Shown here piece by piece: positions 8,796 through 59,211 of a stretch of 64,000 nucleotides of DNA (position 1 is the stretch's first letter; each line of letters opens with the position of its first letter). Under the pieces are notes generated by a model, which was not told the origin of the DNA, did not search any database, and was given only the letters and a program-made list of their open reading frames with translations. Both the position numbers and the translations under genes were made by a program. Source of the DNA: Actibacterium sp. XHP0104 (GTDB taxonomy: Bacteria > Pseudomonadota > Alphaproteobacteria > Rhodobacterales > Rhodobacteraceae). The DNA lies in assembly GCF_025751515.1 (NCBI RefSeq), contig NZ_JAOWLE010000004.1, positions 186,001-250,000 of the forward strand, written 5' to 3'.

Positions 8796-9789
8796 CCGGC
8801 GCCCCCTTGTCGGCCTCGAACCCCAGCGTTTCGGGATCAAGCACGTAATGCGCGCCGCAGAACTGGCAATCGGCGGTCACGATGCCCTCGTCCGTGGTCA
8901 TATGCGCGATGTCCTTGGCCGAGTAGATCGACAGGCTTTCGCGCACACGCTCTTCGGAACAGGTGCAGCCGAACTTGATCGACTGCGAATCGAACACCCG
9001 CGGCTGTTCCTCGTGAAACAGGCGGATCAGCAGGTCGGTCGGCTGAACCGAGGGGCCGATCAGTTCCAGGTCTTCGACGGTATCCAGCAGGGTATTGGCG
9101 CGGATCCAGTTTTCCTCTTCGTCGCCGGTCAGCATATCCGCCGCGCGCAACAGGCCGCCATCGCCCGAACCACCCTCTTGCGCCACATGCGGCGAGGCCT
9201 TGGGCATATGCTGCAACATCACCCCGCCCGCGCGCCAATGTTCGCCTTGCCCAGCCAGGGTCGAGCGGCCAAAGCTAAGCGCGAACCGCGTCGGCAGCTG
9301 TTCGGACTGGGCGAAATAGGTCTCGGCGCAAGAGGCAAGCGACCCGCCGGCGATCGGCGTGATGCCCTGATAGGGCACCATGCCCTCGCCCTGGTCGATC
9401 AGGATTGCCAGATAGCCCTTGCCGATCTGGCTGAACGGATCTGCCGCAACCGGGTCAAGCCGATCCTCGTCATAAGACGCATAGGCCCGCACCCGGGCCG
9501 AGCGGCCGTCCTCGGTCGGGCCATAGTAATCAGTGGCAATCAGCCGCGCTGGCCCATCGCCGCGCACCTGCAACGACAGCTTCCACCGCAGCTTGATCGT
9601 CTGCCCGATCAGCGCCGTCAGCAGCGCGGCCTCGGCAACCAAAGCCTCGATCGCGGGCGGATAATCATGTTGCGCCAAAACCTGATCCAACACCCCGTCA
9701 AGCCGGGCAACACGGCCACGGATATCCGAGCGATCCAACTGGAAGGGCAGGACTGTATCGTCCCAGGCGATTTGAGATCCGAAAGACAT
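8782..9789 (-). CDS. hslO: Hsp33 redox-regulated chaperonin
   Basis: A 335-residue Hsp33, a cytosolic holdase activated by oxidation plus unfolding. The C-terminal zinc switch is intact: CTC (near residue 276) and CQFC (near 308). The ATG at 9789 gives MSFGSQIAWDD, typical of alphaproteobacterial members; in-frame upstream codons lie in the divergent promoter region shared with the next nudix gene. First gene of a four-gene overlapping operon. Confidence 0.95.
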   Translation of the reverse strand: MSFGSQIAWDDTVLPFQLDRSDIRGRVARLDGVLDQVLAQHDYPPAIEALVAEAALLTALIGQTIKLRWKLSLQVRGDGPARLIATDYYGPTEDGRSARVRAYASYDEDRLDPVAADPFSQIGKGYLAILIDQGEGMVPYQGITPIAGGSLASCAETYFAQSEQLPTRFALSFGRSTLAGQGEHWRAGGVMLQHMPKASPHVAQEGGSGDGGLLRAADMLTGDEEENWIRANTLLDTVEDLELIGPSVQPTDLLIRLFHEEQPRVFDSQSIKFGCTCSEERVRESLSIYSAKDIAHMTTDEGIVTADCQFCGAHYVLDPETLGFEADKGAPGDDD

Positions 9790-26001: not shown

Positions 26002-26354
26002 TGCGAGCGGTGTGGTTGATATCAGGGCTGATCTGCGTTGGCCTGGGCATGGCGGGCATCTTCCTGCCGCTGCTGCCAACCGTGCCGTTCATGCTGCTGG
26101 CCGCGTTCTGCTTTGCGCGCTCGTCCGAGCGGCTGCACAACTGGCTGCTGATGCACCCGCGGTTTGGCCATCACATCGTCGATTGGCAAGAACGCGGCGC
26201 CATCACGCGCCGCGTCAAATGGATCGCAACAGTCTCTATCCTTGCGACTTTCGCGATTTCCCTAGCCCTGGACCTGCGCCCACTGGTGCTGGGCATTCAG
26301 GCCGTCACACTGGGCTGTGTGCTGCTGTTTATATGGTCCCGGCCCGAGGGCTAG
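26001..26354 (+). CDS. YbaN-family (DUF454) inner-membrane protein
   Basis: A 117-residue membrane protein with hydrophobic segments at about residues 4-40 (with the motif GIFLPLLPTVPF) and 74-112, and a basic loop between. The motif is diagnostic of the DUF454/YbaN family, whose function is unknown. Its ATG overlaps the hemW stop by one base. The 3' end runs 26 bases into the converging parB gene. It carries one copy of the repeated motif (26232), using ACA, TCT and CTT codons. Confidence 0.85.
   Translation: MRAVWLISGLICVGLGMAGIFLPLLPTVPFMLLAAFCFARSSERLHNWLLMHPRFGHHIVDWQERGAITRRVKWIATVSILATFAISLALDLRPLVLGIQAVTLGCVLLFIWSRPEG
26231..26244 (+). repeat. Repeated motif copy AGTCTCTATCCTTG (in ybaN-like gene)
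   Basis: A plus-strand motif copy, here in sense with a plus-strand gene. It reads ACA-GTC-TCT-ATC-CTT. It shows the motif is fixed on the DNA strand rather than on the coding strand. Confidence 0.45.
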
Positions 26355-27240
26355 CGCTAAGCATCCGGCACAGCTCGTCCAGCTGATCAAGATCGGCATA
26401 GCTGATCGTGATCTTGCCGGCCTCTTGCCCTGGCGGATGGTCAATCGCCACCTTCATTCCCAGATTTGCAGCCAGATCCAGCTCTAGCGCGCGGGTGTCG
26501 GCGTCTTTCTCGCCGCTGGGCGCGGAAACGCGCGGCTTTGACGCCACCGGTTTCGGCCCCTTAGCCAGCTTTTCGGTCTCGCGCACCGACAACCCGCCGG
26601 TAATAACCTGACGCGCCAGCGCGGCAGGATCGTCGGTGGTGATCAGCGCCCGTGCATGGCCAGCGGTCAGCTTGCCCTCGCGCAGATAGTCCTGCACCTC
26701 ATCGGGCAGCTGCAACAGCCGCAACAGGTTGGCGATATGACTGCGCGATTTGCTTAGCGCATCGGCCATCTTTTCCTGGGTGTGACCAAAGCGATCCATC
26801 AGCTGACGATAGCCCTGCGCCTCTTCGATCGGGTTCAGATCGGCGCGCTGAATGTTCTCGATGATCGCAACCTCAAGAACCTCGGTGTCGTCGAATTCAC
26901 GCACCAAAACCGGAATCTGATGCAGCTGCGCGCGCTGCGAGGCACGCCAGCGACGCTCACCGGCCACAATCTCATAGGTGCCAGCCTGGCGCGGGTTGTT
27001 GCGCACGATCAGCGGCTGGATCACGCCCTTTTCACGGATCGAGGCGGCCAGCTCTTCCAGTGCCTCTTCGGCGAAATGGCGGCGCGGCTGATCGGGGTTG
27101 GGCACGACGCTTTCGATCGGCACCAGCATATCGGCGCGGCGCGGGCGGTCTTCGGTCGCGGGCGCCTCTTCGTTCATGTTCACATCGGCGATCAGCGCCG
27201 ACAGGCCACGGCCCAGGCCACGTCTTTCGGGTTTTTTCAT
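26329..27240 (-). CDS. parB: Chromosome partitioning protein ParB
   Basis: A 303-residue ParB. The CTP-binding core has NPDQPRR and GERRWRAS; the helix-turn-helix follows the NIQRADLNPIEEA block, and a C-terminal dimer domain is at about 250-300. ParB loads at parS and spreads as a sliding clamp. The ATG at 27240 (MKKPERRGLGRGLSALI) is used; the preceding codon is TTG. Two perfect parS sites lie about 1.4 and 3.3 kb upstream. The end overlaps the converging ybaN-like gene by 26 bases. Confidence 0.97.
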   Translation of the reverse strand: MKKPERRGLGRGLSALIADVNMNEEAPATEDRPRRADMLVPIESVVPNPDQPRRHFAEEALEELAASIREKGVIQPLIVRNNPRQAGTYEIVAGERRWRASQRAQLHQIPVLVREFDDTEVLEVAIIENIQRADLNPIEEAQGYRQLMDRFGHTQEKMADALSKSRSHIANLLRLLQLPDEVQDYLREGKLTAGHARALITTDDPAALARQVITGGLSVRETEKLAKGPKPVASKPRVSAPSGEKDADTRALELDLAANLGMKVAIDHPPGQEAGKITISYADLDQLDELCRMLSASPRAGTI

Positions 27241-27251
27241 CAATCTTCCCC

Positions 27252-28061
27252 TTATGCCGCGATCGCCGTGCCGCGTTTCAGCATTTCCCGCGCCAGCGCG
27301 CGATAGGCCTGCGCCCCGCGCGAGGTCGGATCGTAATCAAGCACCGGCATCGCGAAAGACGGCGCCTCGCTGACCCGCACGTTGCGCGGGATCACCGTTT
27401 CGAACACCAGCTCGCCCAGATATTCGCGCGCGTCCGATTCCACCTGCTGCGACAGGTTGTTGCGGCCGTCATACATGGTCAGCACCACGCCCTCGATCCG
27501 AAGGCTGGGGTTGGCGGTCTGGCGCAGCTCGCGGATCGACAGCATCAGCTGCGACAGCCCTTCGAGCGCGAAGAATTCCGATTGCAGCGGCACCAGCACC
27601 GAATGCGCGGCGACCATCGCGTTGACGGTCAACAGGCTAAGCGACGGCGGGCAGTCGATCAGAATGAAATCAAAGCCATAGGCATCAATCGCGGGCTGGC
27701 GCAGGGCGTCGTGCAGCAGATAGCTGCGCTTTTCGTTCGAAACCATTTCGATATCGGCAGAGCTAAGATCGGTGGTGGCAGGTGCGATCAACAGGCCCTC
27801 GACATCGGTACGGCGGATCACCTCGCTCAGCGGTGCGTCGTCCAGCAGCAGATCATAGGTGGTGCGGGTGCGCTGGTCGGGCTCGATGCCCAGCCCGGTA
27901 GAGGCATTGCCCTGCGGATCGAGGTCAACGATCAGCACGGTCAGCCCCTCGGCCACCAGCGCGGCAGCCAGGTTGATCGCGGTGGTGGTTTTGCCCACAC
28001 CGCCTTTTTGGTTGGCAACGGCGATGATTTTCGGGCCAGCGGGCCGGCTTGGATCAGACAT
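27252..28061 (-). CDS. parA: Chromosome partitioning ATPase ParA
   Basis: A 269-residue Walker-type ATPase. The deviant Walker A motif KGGVGKTT is at residues 19-26; the [10 protein letters not shown] Walker B region and the DPQGNAS loop are present. ParA uses ATP-dependent DNA binding to pull ParB-parS complexes. It overlaps the rsmG stop by 8 bases and sits 8 bases upstream of parB's start, so the three are translationally close. Confidence 0.97.
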
Positions 28062-28662
28062 GGGAAAGCCCCTTGATTGCCAGGATGACGGCGTTTGAAT
28101 CGGTTACGCTATTGGATTTCTGAACCTCGAAGCGCCAGTTTGCAAGCGCCTCGGTCAGTTCGGCCTGATGGTTTGCGCCCTTGGGGAAAATCGCCACACC
28201 ATCGGGCAAAAGATGCCGCTGGGCAAAGCCCAACAGCACATCAAGCGAGGCCAGCGCCCGCGCCGACAGCACATCTGCGCCCAAGGGCGGCACATCCTCG
28301 ATGCGTTCGGCGATCACATTCGCACGCACACCGGCCTCGCGGGCGACGGTACGCAGAAATGTCGCCTTGCGCTGATCGCTTTCCACCAGCGTGACTTGCA
28401 TGTCGGGCGCATGCTCGGCGGCCAGAATCGCAATCACCATCCCCGGAAATCCGCCGCCGCTGCCCAGATCGGCCCAATGGCGGGCCAGCGGGGCCAACTG
28501 AAAGATCTGCGCGGAATCGACGAAATGCCGCGCCCAAGCGTCGGCCAAAGTGGACTTGGCGACCAGGTTGATCGCCGGATTCCACTTGTGCAGCAGGGAT
28601 TCATAGGTTTTCAGGCGCTCGAATGTTTCACGTGAAACACTCAGCCCGGCCAGGTCACTCAT
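28054..28662 (-). CDS. rsmG: 16S rRNA (guanine-527-N7)-methyltransferase
   Basis: A 202-residue RsmG (GidB), which methylates G527 of 16S rRNA. The SAM-binding block is [18 protein letters not shown] perfect parS palindrome (28624-28639) is embedded in its first codons, encoding SVSRET. It starts by overlapping the mnmG stop by 4 bases (ATGA). Confidence 0.96.
28624..28639. promoter_or_regulatory. parS centromere site 1 (within rsmG)
   Basis: A perfect 16-bp palindrome TGTTTCACGTGAAACA, identical to the canonical bacterial parS consensus. It lies in the 5' coding part of rsmG, about 560 bases before the parA start. Confidence 0.97.
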
Positions 28663-30533
28663 GCGGATTTGCGCCCCATCTGGCGGATTTTGGCCAAAAG
28701 CAACGTCAGCGCGGCGGGGGTCATCCCATCCACGCGCCCCGCCTGCCCCAGCGTTACCGGGCGCACGCGGCCAAGTTTCAGCTTTAGCTCATTCGACAGG
28801 CCTTGCAGCGCGTCGTAATCGAAACCATCCGGAATCGCCTGCGCCTCGTCGCGCTTCATCGCCTCGACATCCATCTGTTGGCGACGGATGTAATTGGCAT
28901 AGAGCGCATCGCGGGCGATCTGGTCGCTAATCTCGGGCGCGACATCGGTCAGCGCCGGTTCAAGCCGCGTGACATCGGCAAAGGTGACATCCGGAAACGC
29001 CAGCAAATCAAAGCCCGAACGGCGGTTGCCATCAGCATTCACCCGTATCCCGGCCTCGTTCAGCTGCTTGGGCGACAGGGCCATCGCATCAAGGATCTCG
29101 CGCGCCTTGCCCATCGCCTGCATCTTGTCGCCAAAGGCGCGGCGGCGGGCCTCGCCCACGCAACCCAGATCAATGCCCATGGGCGTCAGCCGCTGGTCGG
29201 CATTGTCGGCGCGCAGGCTCAGGCGGAACTCGGCGCGCGAGGTGAACATGCGATAGGGCTCGGACACCCCGCGCGTAACCAGGTCATCAATCATCACGCC
29301 GATATAGCTGTCGGTGCGGCTGAATGTGATCGGATCACGCCCCAGCGCCGCCAGCGCGGCATTCAGCCCGGCCACCATGCCCTGCGCGGCGGCCTCTTCA
29401 TAGCCAGTGGTGCCGTTGATCTGCCCGGCCAGATAGAGGCCCGGCACATCCTTGACGGCCAGCGTCGCGGCCAGCGCGCGCGGATCGACGTAATCGTATT
29501 CAATGGCATAACCCGGCTGCAGGATCACCGTATCCTCTAGCCCGCGGATCGAATGAACATAGTCATGCTGCACATCCTCGGGCAGCGAGGTCGAGATACC
29601 GTTCGGATAGACCGTATGGTCGTCCAGACCCTCGGGTTCGAGGAAAATCTGATGCGAGGTCTTATCGGCAAACCGCACGATCTTGTCCTCGATCGAGGGG
29701 CAATAGCGCGGGCCGACGCCCTCGATATGGCCACCATACATGGCAGATCGTTCAAGGTTCTCGCGGATGATCTCGTGGGTTTTCTCATTCGTATGGGTGA
29801 TGCCACAAGCCACCTGCCGCACGAACGGCGTCTTGTTCATAAAGGAAAACACCACCGGATCGTCGTCGCCCGGCTGTTCCTCGAGGATATCCCAGTTGAT
29901 CGTGCGCCCATCCAGACGCGGCGGTGTGCCGGTTTTCAGACGGCCCAGCGGCAGGCCGAAACCATCAATCCGCTCAGCCAGCTTGACCGAGGGCTTGTCG
30001 CCCATCCGCCCGCCCGCACGCCGCACATCGCCAATATGGATCACGCCGCGCAGGAACGTGCCCGTTGTCAGCACGACAGACGCCGCGCGCAGCTCGGACC
30101 CATCCTCTAGCACCACGCCACATACCCGGTCGCCCTGCATGATCAGATCGGTCGCTTCGCCCTCGATCACGGTCAGGTTGGGCGTCGCGGCGATCATCTC
30201 TTGCATCGCGGCGCGATACAGCTTGCGGTCGGCCTGGGCGCGCGGGCCTTGGACAGCGGGGCCTTTGCGGCGGTTCAACAGGCGGAACTGGATGCCCGCC
30301 CGGTCGGCAACCTGCCCCATCAGCCCGTCCATGGCGTCAACCTCGCGCACCAGGTGGCCCTTGCCCAACCCGCCAATCGCCGGGTTGCAGGACATGGTGC
30401 CTAGGTCGGCCTGGCGCAGGGTGATCAGCGCCGTGCGCGCACCCAGCCGCGCCGCCGCATGGGCCGCGTCTGCACCGGCATGGCCACCACCGATGACCAC
30501 CACATCAAAGTCGAGATGTTTCACGTGAAACAC
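28659..30533 (-). CDS. mnmG: tRNA uridine-5-carboxymethylaminomethyl modification enzyme MnmG
   Basis: A 624-residue FAD enzyme that, with MnmE, installs cmnm5U34 in tRNA anticodons. The FAD loop [13 protein letters not shown] begins at about residue 13. Catalytic Cys candidates lie in MSCNPAIGG and in the C-terminal half. The start codon is GTG at 30533; it is itself inside a perfect parS site, so the first six codons read as GTG TTT CAC GTG AAA CAT. It ends 4 bases into rsmG. Confidence 0.97.
30517..30532. promoter_or_regulatory. parS centromere site 2 (over the mnmG start codon)
   Basis: A second perfect TGTTTCACGTGAAACA. The mnmG GTG start codon covers 30531-30533, so two of its three bases lie in the palindrome. 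The sites are 1.9 kb apart and 3.2-5.2 kb from the oriC candidate. Confidence 0.97.
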
Positions 30534-33219: not shown

Positions 33220-33669
33220 TCAGAATTTCACAATCACCGACATGACGATCACGATCATCAAAACTGTCGGCACTTCGTTCATCATCCGGTAAGTCTTGCC
33301 GGGCAGAGTATTCGTGCCATTAACGAAATCTTTGCGACGATATCCCAGCCAGTGATGAAACCATGTCATGATCAGCACCGACACCGCCTTGGTCCAGGGC
33401 CAGACCGACGACCAGTCGACGATACCGGGCGTGAAGACCAGCATCAGGCCGAACACCCATGTCGCCGTCATCGCAGGGTTCATGATGAAGCGCAGCAGTT
33501 TACGCTCCATCATCTGAAACAGGGCATCCGTTTCACTGCCCACTTCGACGCGTTCGGTATGATGCACGAACAGCCTGGGCAGATAGAACAGCCCTGCCAT
33601 CCAGCTGATCACCGAAATCACATGCAATGTCTTTGTCCAGGGATAGAGCCCCGCCAGAATATCACCCAA
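33220..33669 (-). CDS. hemJ: Protoporphyrinogen IX oxidase HemJ
   Basis: A 149-residue, four-helix membrane protein of the HemJ family, which oxidises protoporphyrinogen IX in bacteria lacking HemG/HemY. Key residues are visible: His in KTLHVISV near residue 16, VHHTE, and WFHHWLGYRRKDF. The start appears to be TTG at 33669 with GAAAGGAT upstream; no ATG or GTG lies before the conserved YPWTKTLH block. It flanks the origin on the left; rho follows after 125 bases that hold no gene. Confidence 0.9.
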   Translation of the reverse strand: MGDILAGLYPWTKTLHVISVISWMAGLFYLPRLFVHHTERVEVGSETDALFQMMERKLLRFIMNPAMTATWVFGLMLVFTPGIVDWSSVWPWTKAVSVLIMTWFHHWLGYRRKDFVNGTNTLPGKTYRMMNEVPTVLMIVIVMSVIVKF

Positions 33670-33704
33670 GGGTCTGATCCTTTCGATCCGGTCCAGTCAG
33701 GCCC

Positions 33705-33745
33705 TTCTTAAATAAATAAAGAAAGAAAAGAAAAGATGATGATGT
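33705..33745. other. AT-rich candidate DNA unwinding element of oriC
   Basis: A TTCTTAAATAAATAAA-type stretch followed by GAAAGAAAAGAAAAGATGATG. It is far more AT-rich than the surrounding genome and directly precedes the first DnaA boxes. Confidence 0.6.
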
Positions 33746-33755
33746 TTGTAGGGCC

Positions 33756-33773
33756 TGTGGACAGTGTGGATTA
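33756..33773 (-). promoter_or_regulatory. Two tandem DnaA-box-like 9-mers
   Basis: TGTGGACAG (33756-33764) and TGTGGATTA (33765-33773) abut head to tail. In reverse complement they differ from TTATCCACA at two positions and one position. Confidence 0.6.
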
Positions 33774-33907
33774 ATGATCTTTCCACGGTTTCATACACAG
33801 CTATGCCCGGTTGTGAATAGATGTGGGCGACTCGGCTGCTGGCGCAGAAAATTCATAGAAAATACATGTTTATTAACGACTTATGCTGATTTCCTTATGG
33901 CAGAGCC

Positions 33908-33916
33908 TGTGGATAG
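33908..33916 (-). promoter_or_regulatory. DnaA-box-like 9-mer
   Basis: TGTGGATAG is the reverse complement of CTATCCACA, one mismatch from the consensus TTATCCACA. Confidence 0.65.
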
Positions 33917-34078
33917 CCCTGCGGATGAAATCTGAAAGGCGCGCTTATCCCAACGCTGAAAATCTTGCCGCCCACAAGGAATAATATCGGGGTCATCCTT
34001 GACAAGATGCCGGCCATCTGGGGAATTCATCCAAAGGCCCGCATCTGTCCAGAAATCACCCCCGGCCTTATCGGGGGC

Positions 34079-34087
34079 TTATCCACA
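34079..34087 (+). promoter_or_regulatory. Perfect DnaA box
   Basis: TTATCCACA matches the consensus exactly and lies 11 bases before the maf start codon, at the right edge of the origin region. Confidence 0.85.
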
Positions 34088-34098
34088 GGTTCATACCC

Positions 34099-34698
34099 AT
34101 GCCCAAACCCGTGCTGTTGGCGTCAGGCTCTGAGATCCGGCTGCAACTGCTGCGTCAGGCCGGGGTCGATGTCACCGCCAAACCCGCCCGGATCGACGAA
34201 GATGCCATCCGCCACGCGCTAGAGGCCGAGGATGCCACCCCCCGCGACGTTGCCGACACGCTGGCCGAATTCAAGGCCCGCAAGATCGCCGAGAAACAGC
34301 CCGAAGCCCTGGTGATCGGCTGTGACCAGGTGCTGGAATATCGCGGCCAGATCCTGACCAAGCCCACCGATATCGACGACGCCCGCGACCAGCTGCGCCG
34401 GCTGCGCGGCAATCCGCATAAACTGTTGTCCGCCGCGGTGATCTATGACGGGATCGAGCCCGTCTGGCGCCATGTCGGCGAGGTGCGCCTGACCATGCGG
34501 CCCTTTTCGGATGCCTATCTGGACGACTATCTTGACCGCAACTGGCACAGCATTCGCCACGCCGTGGGTTGCTATAAGCTGGAAGAAGAAGGTGTGCGGT
34601 TGTTTTCACGGGTCGATGGCGACTACTTTAACGTATTGGGCCTGCCGCTGTTGCAGGTGCTGGCCTTCCTGACAACGAACGGAACATTACAGGCATGA
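34099..34698 (+). CDS. maf: Maf/Ham1-like nucleotide pyrophosphatase
   Basis: A 199-residue Maf-family nucleoside triphosphate pyrophosphatase. Motifs are [13 protein letters not shown] at the start, the catalytic [10 protein letters not shown] block and SAAVIYD. Family members hydrolyse modified nucleotides such as m7GTP, dTTP or UTP; the substrate is not certain here. It is the first gene right of the origin and overlaps aroE by 4 bases. Confidence 0.93.
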
Positions 34699-58555: not shown

Positions 58556-58620
58556 CACGGCTCTGTTCGGCGTCGATATAGACCCAGTTGAGGCGCCGAG
58601 GCGACCTTTGGAAGAACGGC

Positions 58621-59211
58621 TTACATCTGCGCCAGCAGCTCCTCGTGCCGCGCGGTGAAATCGCGGCGCACTTCGACCGGCGGGCGCAGGTGCAGGGTCA
58701 GCCCGGCAATCAGGTCGGGGTTTTGCTTGCCAAAGAACTTGTCGCCCTCGGCACGGGTGAACCCGGCGATCTGCGTGGCCTCTAGCCAAGCCGACACCTT
58801 GTCGGCGGCCTTGATCTTGCGCTTCACCAGTTTCGGCACCACCGCGGGCAGGCCGAACCGGATGTGAATCGCCGCCGACAGCCGGTCATCCAGCGCGCCA
58901 TATTCGGGGCCGACCGCCGCCTTGACCGGAGAAATCATGTCGCCGATCACATATTCCGGCGCGTCATGCAGCAGGGCGGCCAGCTTCCATTTCACCGGCG
59001 CATCGGGGTTCATCCGGCTGAAAATCTGTTCGACCAGCAGCGAATGCTCGGCCACGGAATAGGGGAAATCGCCAACCGTCTGCCCGTTCCACCGCGCGAC
59101 AAAGGCCAGCCCGTGGGCGATGTCCTCGATCTCGATATCCACCGGGGTCGGGTCCAGCAGGTCAAGCCTGCGACCGGACAGCATCCGTTGCCATGCGCGC
59201 GGTTGTTTCAT
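58621..59211 (-). CDS. HD-domain phosphohydrolase (YfbR-like)
   Basis: A 196-residue HD-domain protein. Metal ligands appear in [23 protein letters not shown] and [13 protein letters not shown], typical of YfbR-like 5'-nucleotidases that dephosphorylate deoxynucleoside monophosphates. The substrate is inferred. The start at 59211 is favoured; the very long in-frame read-through to 60699 crosses ahcY and is not coding. It is divergent from ahcY. Confidence 0.88.

Follow-up and report, generated by a model that had tools for sequence, protein, structure and literature searches.

The question raised by this locus is whether the 429-bp intergenic region that separates hemJ from maf (33670-34098) in Actibacterium sp. 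XHP0104 is the place where the chromosome starts to replicate, or a spacer that serves only its two flanking genes. The window, that is, the whole stretch of 64,000 nucleotides analysed, covers bases 186,001-250,000 of a 280,444-base contig in a genome of 2.69 Mb and 21 contigs, and the closest named relatives of its maf gene belong to Rhodobacteraceae, e.g. Actibacterium. According to a codon-usage gene model, no internal gap in the window is longer than this region; the initial annotation regarded it as the sole gene-free stretch longer than 300 bases, which holds with one reservation, as there is a single other internal gap above that length, a doubtful one of 308 bp and 65% GC at 58556-58863. 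The AT-richness claimed for the hemJ-maf gap was confirmed, with 48% GC vs. about 63% for the genome. To its left, rho, mnmE, mnmG, rsmG, parA and parB are transcribed away from the gap, and to its right maf is followed by aroE, coaE, dnaQ and then secB; dnaA sits on a different contig. The window was also scanned for Rfam families and for tRNAs, with no matches. Our analysis predicts that this gap is, almost certainly, the chromosomal replication origin (oriC) at which initiation would occur in vivo. The same identity had been proposed in the initial annotation, and the skew changepoint, the synteny, the unique parS sites, a core found once per genome and the class-wide setting of that core agree on it. 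The coordinates of all features are given in Table 1.

Table 1. Features of the predicted origin region (positions in the window).
Feature	Position	Strand	Basis
Predicted oriC, intergenic between divergent hemJ and maf	33670..34098	.	Exceeds all other internal gaps in length; 48% GC; GC skew breaks at contig 220,500 (window 34,500)
hemJ, left boundary gene	33220..33669	-	NCBIfam TIGR00701, 144.4 bits vs. cut-off 138.05
maf, right boundary gene	34099..34698	+	Best NCBIfam match Maf-like PRK02478.1, E 1e-57, under the model's cut-off
Putative DNA-unwinding element, top strand A/G-rich, bottom strand T/C-rich	33704..33733	.	Least stable 40-mer starts at 33704; AT character kept in 85 aligned relatives
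Trinucleotide array and spacer, candidate DnaA-trio-like; top strand GATGATGATGTTTGTAGG, box strand CCTACAAACATCATCATC	33734..33754	-	Conservation, period-3 signal
DnaA box 2 CTGTCCACA, 2 mismatches	33756..33764	-	Abuts box 1 and faces the trinucleotide array; conforms to the published BUS rule
DnaA box 1 TAATCCACA, 1 mismatch	33765..33773	-	GGAT core 84-93% conserved in 85 relatives
Degenerate DnaA box TCATACACA, TTnTCCACA in relatives	33791..33799	+	Columns 74-87% conserved
DnaA box CTATCCACA, at most 1 mismatch	33908..33916	-	Columns 71-85% conserved, gaps counted against
Conserved mid-gap element, consensus TCCACnnnGGAnnA	33971..33984	.	G33979 94%, G at 33980 in 93% of relatives, A33981 87%
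Perfect DnaA box TTATCCACA beside maf start	34079..34087	+	C34084 98%, C34086 92%
parB and parA	26329..28061	-	parB TIGR00180, 210.8 bits; parA, ParA-family matches
Perfect parS, within rsmG start	28624..28639	.	Motif search
Perfect parS, within mnmG start	30517..30532	.	Motif search

The GC skew, named beforehand as a possible refutation of an origin at this site, was analysed on the home contig and in 36 sampled stretches of a one-contig relative (G004), and its outcome favoured the site. The best single changepoint, fitted without using the site, was found at contig position 220,500, adjoining the gap (219,670-220,098 on the contig) at a distance of about 0.4 kb, with a block-permutation p below 1/2000 and a 2-lnL support interval of 217.0-237.5 kb, a width that is a limit of the data. 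The skew was -0.049 to the left of the changepoint and 0.001 (0.0006) to its right. In G004, the cumulative-skew minimum over 3.42-3.56 Mb occurred at 3,475,899, 1.6 kb from the homologous core at 3,477,500, and the sampled skew changed sign near 1.6 Mb (positive before, negative after), on about the opposite side of the chromosome from the core.

The partition system points to the same place. In the whole genome just two parS sites were found at up to one mismatch, both of them 3-5 kb to the left of the gap and beside parAB, and parAB together with the two parS lies within about 8 kb of the gap. G004 carries two perfect parS as well, also 3-5 kb to the left of its core. Both parS are inside coding sequence, and the spacing between them is 1893 bp here vs. 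1917 bp in G004; a 16-mer that differs from parS at two positions, TGTTCCTCGTGAAACA, was also observed at 9005-9020, about 25 kb from the predicted origin. Most of the named family loci with enough flank display the order parB-mnmG-mnmE-rho-(hemJ)-gap-maf-aroE-dnaQ, the exceptions being a few loci ended early by contig ends. When hemJ is present, the gap of the named family loci measures 374-429 bp, and when rho is the left neighbour instead, the distance from the core to maf is unchanged (about 250-300 bp). This kept synteny, the uniqueness of the parS sites and a hemE/COG1806/maf setting of the core across the class bear out the earlier suggestion that the gene order and the nearby parAB/parS fit alphaproteobacterial origins. 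Among the individual loci, no hemJ was found beside the origin in L024, L032, L034, L036, L045, L050, L058, L062 and L063, nor in L078, L081, L092, L096-L098, L100 and L109, in all of which rho adjoins and the core is retained. Two other loci, L193 (G016) and L194 (G002), have COG1806 (PF03618 in G016) between the origin and maf, as in Caulobacter, and most of the family is without it at this place.

Within the gap, a search that allowed one mismatch found three DnaA boxes vs. 0.023 expected (Poisson p about 2e-6); none of 500 shuffles of the gap reached this number, and such a cluster of three boxes within 429 bp is unique on the 280-kb contig. Of the four DnaA-box-like 9-mers that were listed initially, the perfect one is confirmed, and the count of four hinges on the mismatch limit. 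Perfect boxes counted genome-wide were uninformative (8 matches vs. 7 in the reversed control). The GANTC site also listed is present, at 33829, but a single site in the gap is about the chance expectation and carries no weight as origin evidence. Searches of the gap with the strict consensus of CtrA (TTAA-N7-TTAA) and of IHF (WATCAN5WTR) returned no sites. The mid-gap element at 33971-33984 resembles two degenerate DnaA boxes placed back to back.

The left part of the gap contains, in this order, an AT tract, the trinucleotide array GATGATGATG, a GC-rich spacer and tandem DnaA boxes, which on the DnaA-box strand read TAATCCACA-CTGTCCACA-GGCC-CTACAAACATCATCATC-TTTTCTTTTC. By nearest-neighbour energy, no 40-mer on the 280-kb contig is less stable than 33704-33743, in keeping with the unwinding-like element suspected initially. 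The alignment of 85 diverse gaps of the family delimited a core at 33704-33799, composed of the AT tract, AAAnGATGATG, TGTAGG and the abutting DnaA boxes, with conserved box-like sites outside it at 33908, 33971-33984 and 34079. Inside the array and spacer, G33735, T33737, G33738, T33740, G33741, G33748, T33749 and G33751 are conserved in 86-96% of the 85 family members.

A sequence-only profile of this core (R1), built from 34 sequences, scored 74 bits at the core and no more than 5 bits elsewhere in the window, this being its single match in the genome. Over 31 genomes of the family, R1 gave one match each in 25 and was missing in 6, and 24 of the 25 matches lay a short way upstream of maf, COG1806 intervening in two cases; since many of these 31 genomes fed the profile, there is some circularity in the family result. 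In four genomes of the family outside the training of R1 (L163-L166), the match also falls between maf and hemJ. In a class-wide draw, R1 matched 69 out of 385 genomes, and because it misses most of the class (316/385) the absence of a match means nothing. All 65 matching places outside the family were checked, and 56 showed the setting hemE/rho-core-COG1806/maf (24 of 25 stronger matches, 31 of 39 weaker ones, and G045 with hemE-core-COG1806-maf); none of the hemE, rho, COG1806 or maf genes was seen at the remaining nine. In the 31 weaker matches, oriented alike, 9-170 bp separate the core from hemE or rho on its left and 190-470 bp separate it from the gene on its right, and in other families R1 finds the core between hemE and COG1806 in the same orientation. 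A putative unwinding core is, as judged by this profile, recognisable at the equivalent position in numerous other Alphaproteobacteria.

These results bear on another explanation, that the gap does no more than provide promoters for its two flanking genes, hemJ and maf, with a regulatory role for the conserved AT-rich core. The gap parts divergent genes and surely holds their promoters; nevertheless, the spacing of core and maf is preserved where rho, and not hemJ, adjoins, the core retains its orientation in other families with hemE or rho on the left and COG1806 or maf on the right, and neither hemJ nor maf accounts for the break in skew or for the parS. As the core persists though the flanking genes change, we rejected the promoter explanation, which we consider very improbable. 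A location of the origin elsewhere on the contig could be argued from the raw cumulative-skew minimum, which falls at contig 237,145 (window 51,145), 17 kb from the gap and barely inside the support interval of the changepoint. However, skew right of the gap averages close to zero, so the raw minimum drifts off the site, whereas the slope changes at the gap; moreover, the window contains no other core match above 5 bits and the contig no second cluster of three DnaA boxes. Such a displaced origin is, in our judgement, improbable in the extreme, and the hemJ-maf gap is retained as the predicted oriC.

The right-hand order maf-aroE-coaE-dnaQ-secB found here is also that of the Caulobacter crescentus origin (Cori). 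The experimentally mapped Cori sits between hemE and COG1806 (PMC1914354), and our locus resembles it in that rho and heme genes lie to the left and parABS within a few kb, and in its AT-rich tract and several DnaA boxes (PMC1914354; PMC6399470). It differs in that hemJ and maf, rather than hemE and COG1806, flank the gap, and in lacking strict CtrA and IHF consensus sites within the gap, while Cori has five CtrA sites and one IHF site (PMC1914354). Such sites are not a defining feature, since alphaproteobacterial origins with zero CtrA sites exist and not every element is required (PMC1914354). For Rhodobacteraceae, oriC predictions are available for 101 genomes, obtained with Ori-Finder plus proximity to parAB (PMC6699656), and the criteria applied there, i.e. 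a GC-disparity break, a local GC minimum, DnaA boxes and nearby parAB, also hold for our locus; unlike here, the passages of that study on these predictions describe no conserved core of unwinding element, trinucleotides and DnaA boxes and name no flanking genes. The origin is ordinary for its class, and its mildly new part is the class-wide, variant trio-like array.

In the BUS (B. subtilis type) arrangement, DnaA boxes are followed by a GC-rich spacer, DnaA-trios and an AT-rich tract, and the BUS rule asks for at least three 3'-NAN-5' units, preferably 3'-GAT-5' (CTA) where they adjoin the box, no more than 16 bp from a DnaA box with up to two mismatches (PMC8287927). Our core is alike in its tandem DnaA boxes, GC-rich spacer, trinucleotide repeats and AT-rich tract, with a spacer of 12 and four NTN units, and unlike in that the units are ATC (CAT by phase) and not the preferred CTA, and in that the CAA or CAT units of many relatives break the middle-base rule (PMC8287927). 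A single place in the gap agrees with the rule, at box 33756 with spacer 12 and the run ATC ATC ATC TTT, which is also countable from spacer 15; 7.4% of shuffled gaps do so with four units, and chance is therefore not negligible. The window array has one CTA after the GC spacer and is then out of phase. Among the 85 family cores, 44 agree with the rule vs. 8% of shuffles, and a C-phased run of at least three units occurs in 56 vs. 7% of shuffles. The period-3 signal reached z = 13.2 in the family and 6.9 in the class vs. single-base shuffles, values that come from related sequences and are not to be taken as probabilities. Unit counts were CAT 108, CAA 38 and CTA 22 in the family, and CAA 24, CTA 15 and CAT 8 in the class. 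As an isolated observation, the hemJ-maf gap of L040 (G015:C26) has CTACAAC and CATCATCATC units in an order unlike the rest of the family, and the weak R1 match of that genome falls on another contig.

As read from these comparisons, the array occupies the DnaA-trio position, but often with the middle A on the box strand, against the rule. It is conceivable, if somewhat doubtful, that DnaA does not read the array, which would then be bent or unwinding-prone DNA or the site of another alphaproteobacterial protein, e.g. GapR, with the identity of the origin unaffected. The 41 of 85 family cores that depart from the published rule, several of them with CAACAAC arrays devoid of the required middle base, argue for that possibility, whereas the place, spacing and orientation of the array relative to the DnaA boxes fit the DnaA-trio layout, several relatives (L092 and L110 among them) have a perfect CTA CTA CTA, and the window itself agrees with the rule. 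Open-licence literature on DnaA-trios in Rhodobacterales or Alphaproteobacteria yielded general BUS papers and no account of this array, which is weak evidence of novelty.

In the mechanism predicted here, DnaA would bind the abutting boxes at 33756-33773, and the outlying boxes at 33791, 33908, about 33975 and 34079 may assist this binding. The DnaA oligomer would then grow towards hemJ, across the GC-rich spacer and onto the array at 33734-33754, engaging one strand, so that the least stable stretch (33704-33733) might be opened and the replicative helicase loaded there. Segregation of the duplicated origins would fall to ParB, bound at the pair of parS sites 3-5 kb left of the gap. We tentatively suggest, without giving it the better chance, that a single ancestral origin core of fixed orientation is common to Alphaproteobacteria, and that in it DnaA opens the DNA over a variant CAA/CAT/CTA code that breaks the 'middle adenine' rule of DnaA-trios.

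Taken as the predicted oriC, this locus places the origin in a draft genome with no recourse to wet-lab data, and R1 may serve as an origin finder for many alphaproteobacterial families. The DnaA-trio rule was derived from Firmicutes and a few other phyla, and our findings raise the question of whether it is valid in Alphaproteobacteria, whose conserved repeats frequently consist of CAA or CAT units. What deserves a test is the class-wide core with its variant trinucleotides.
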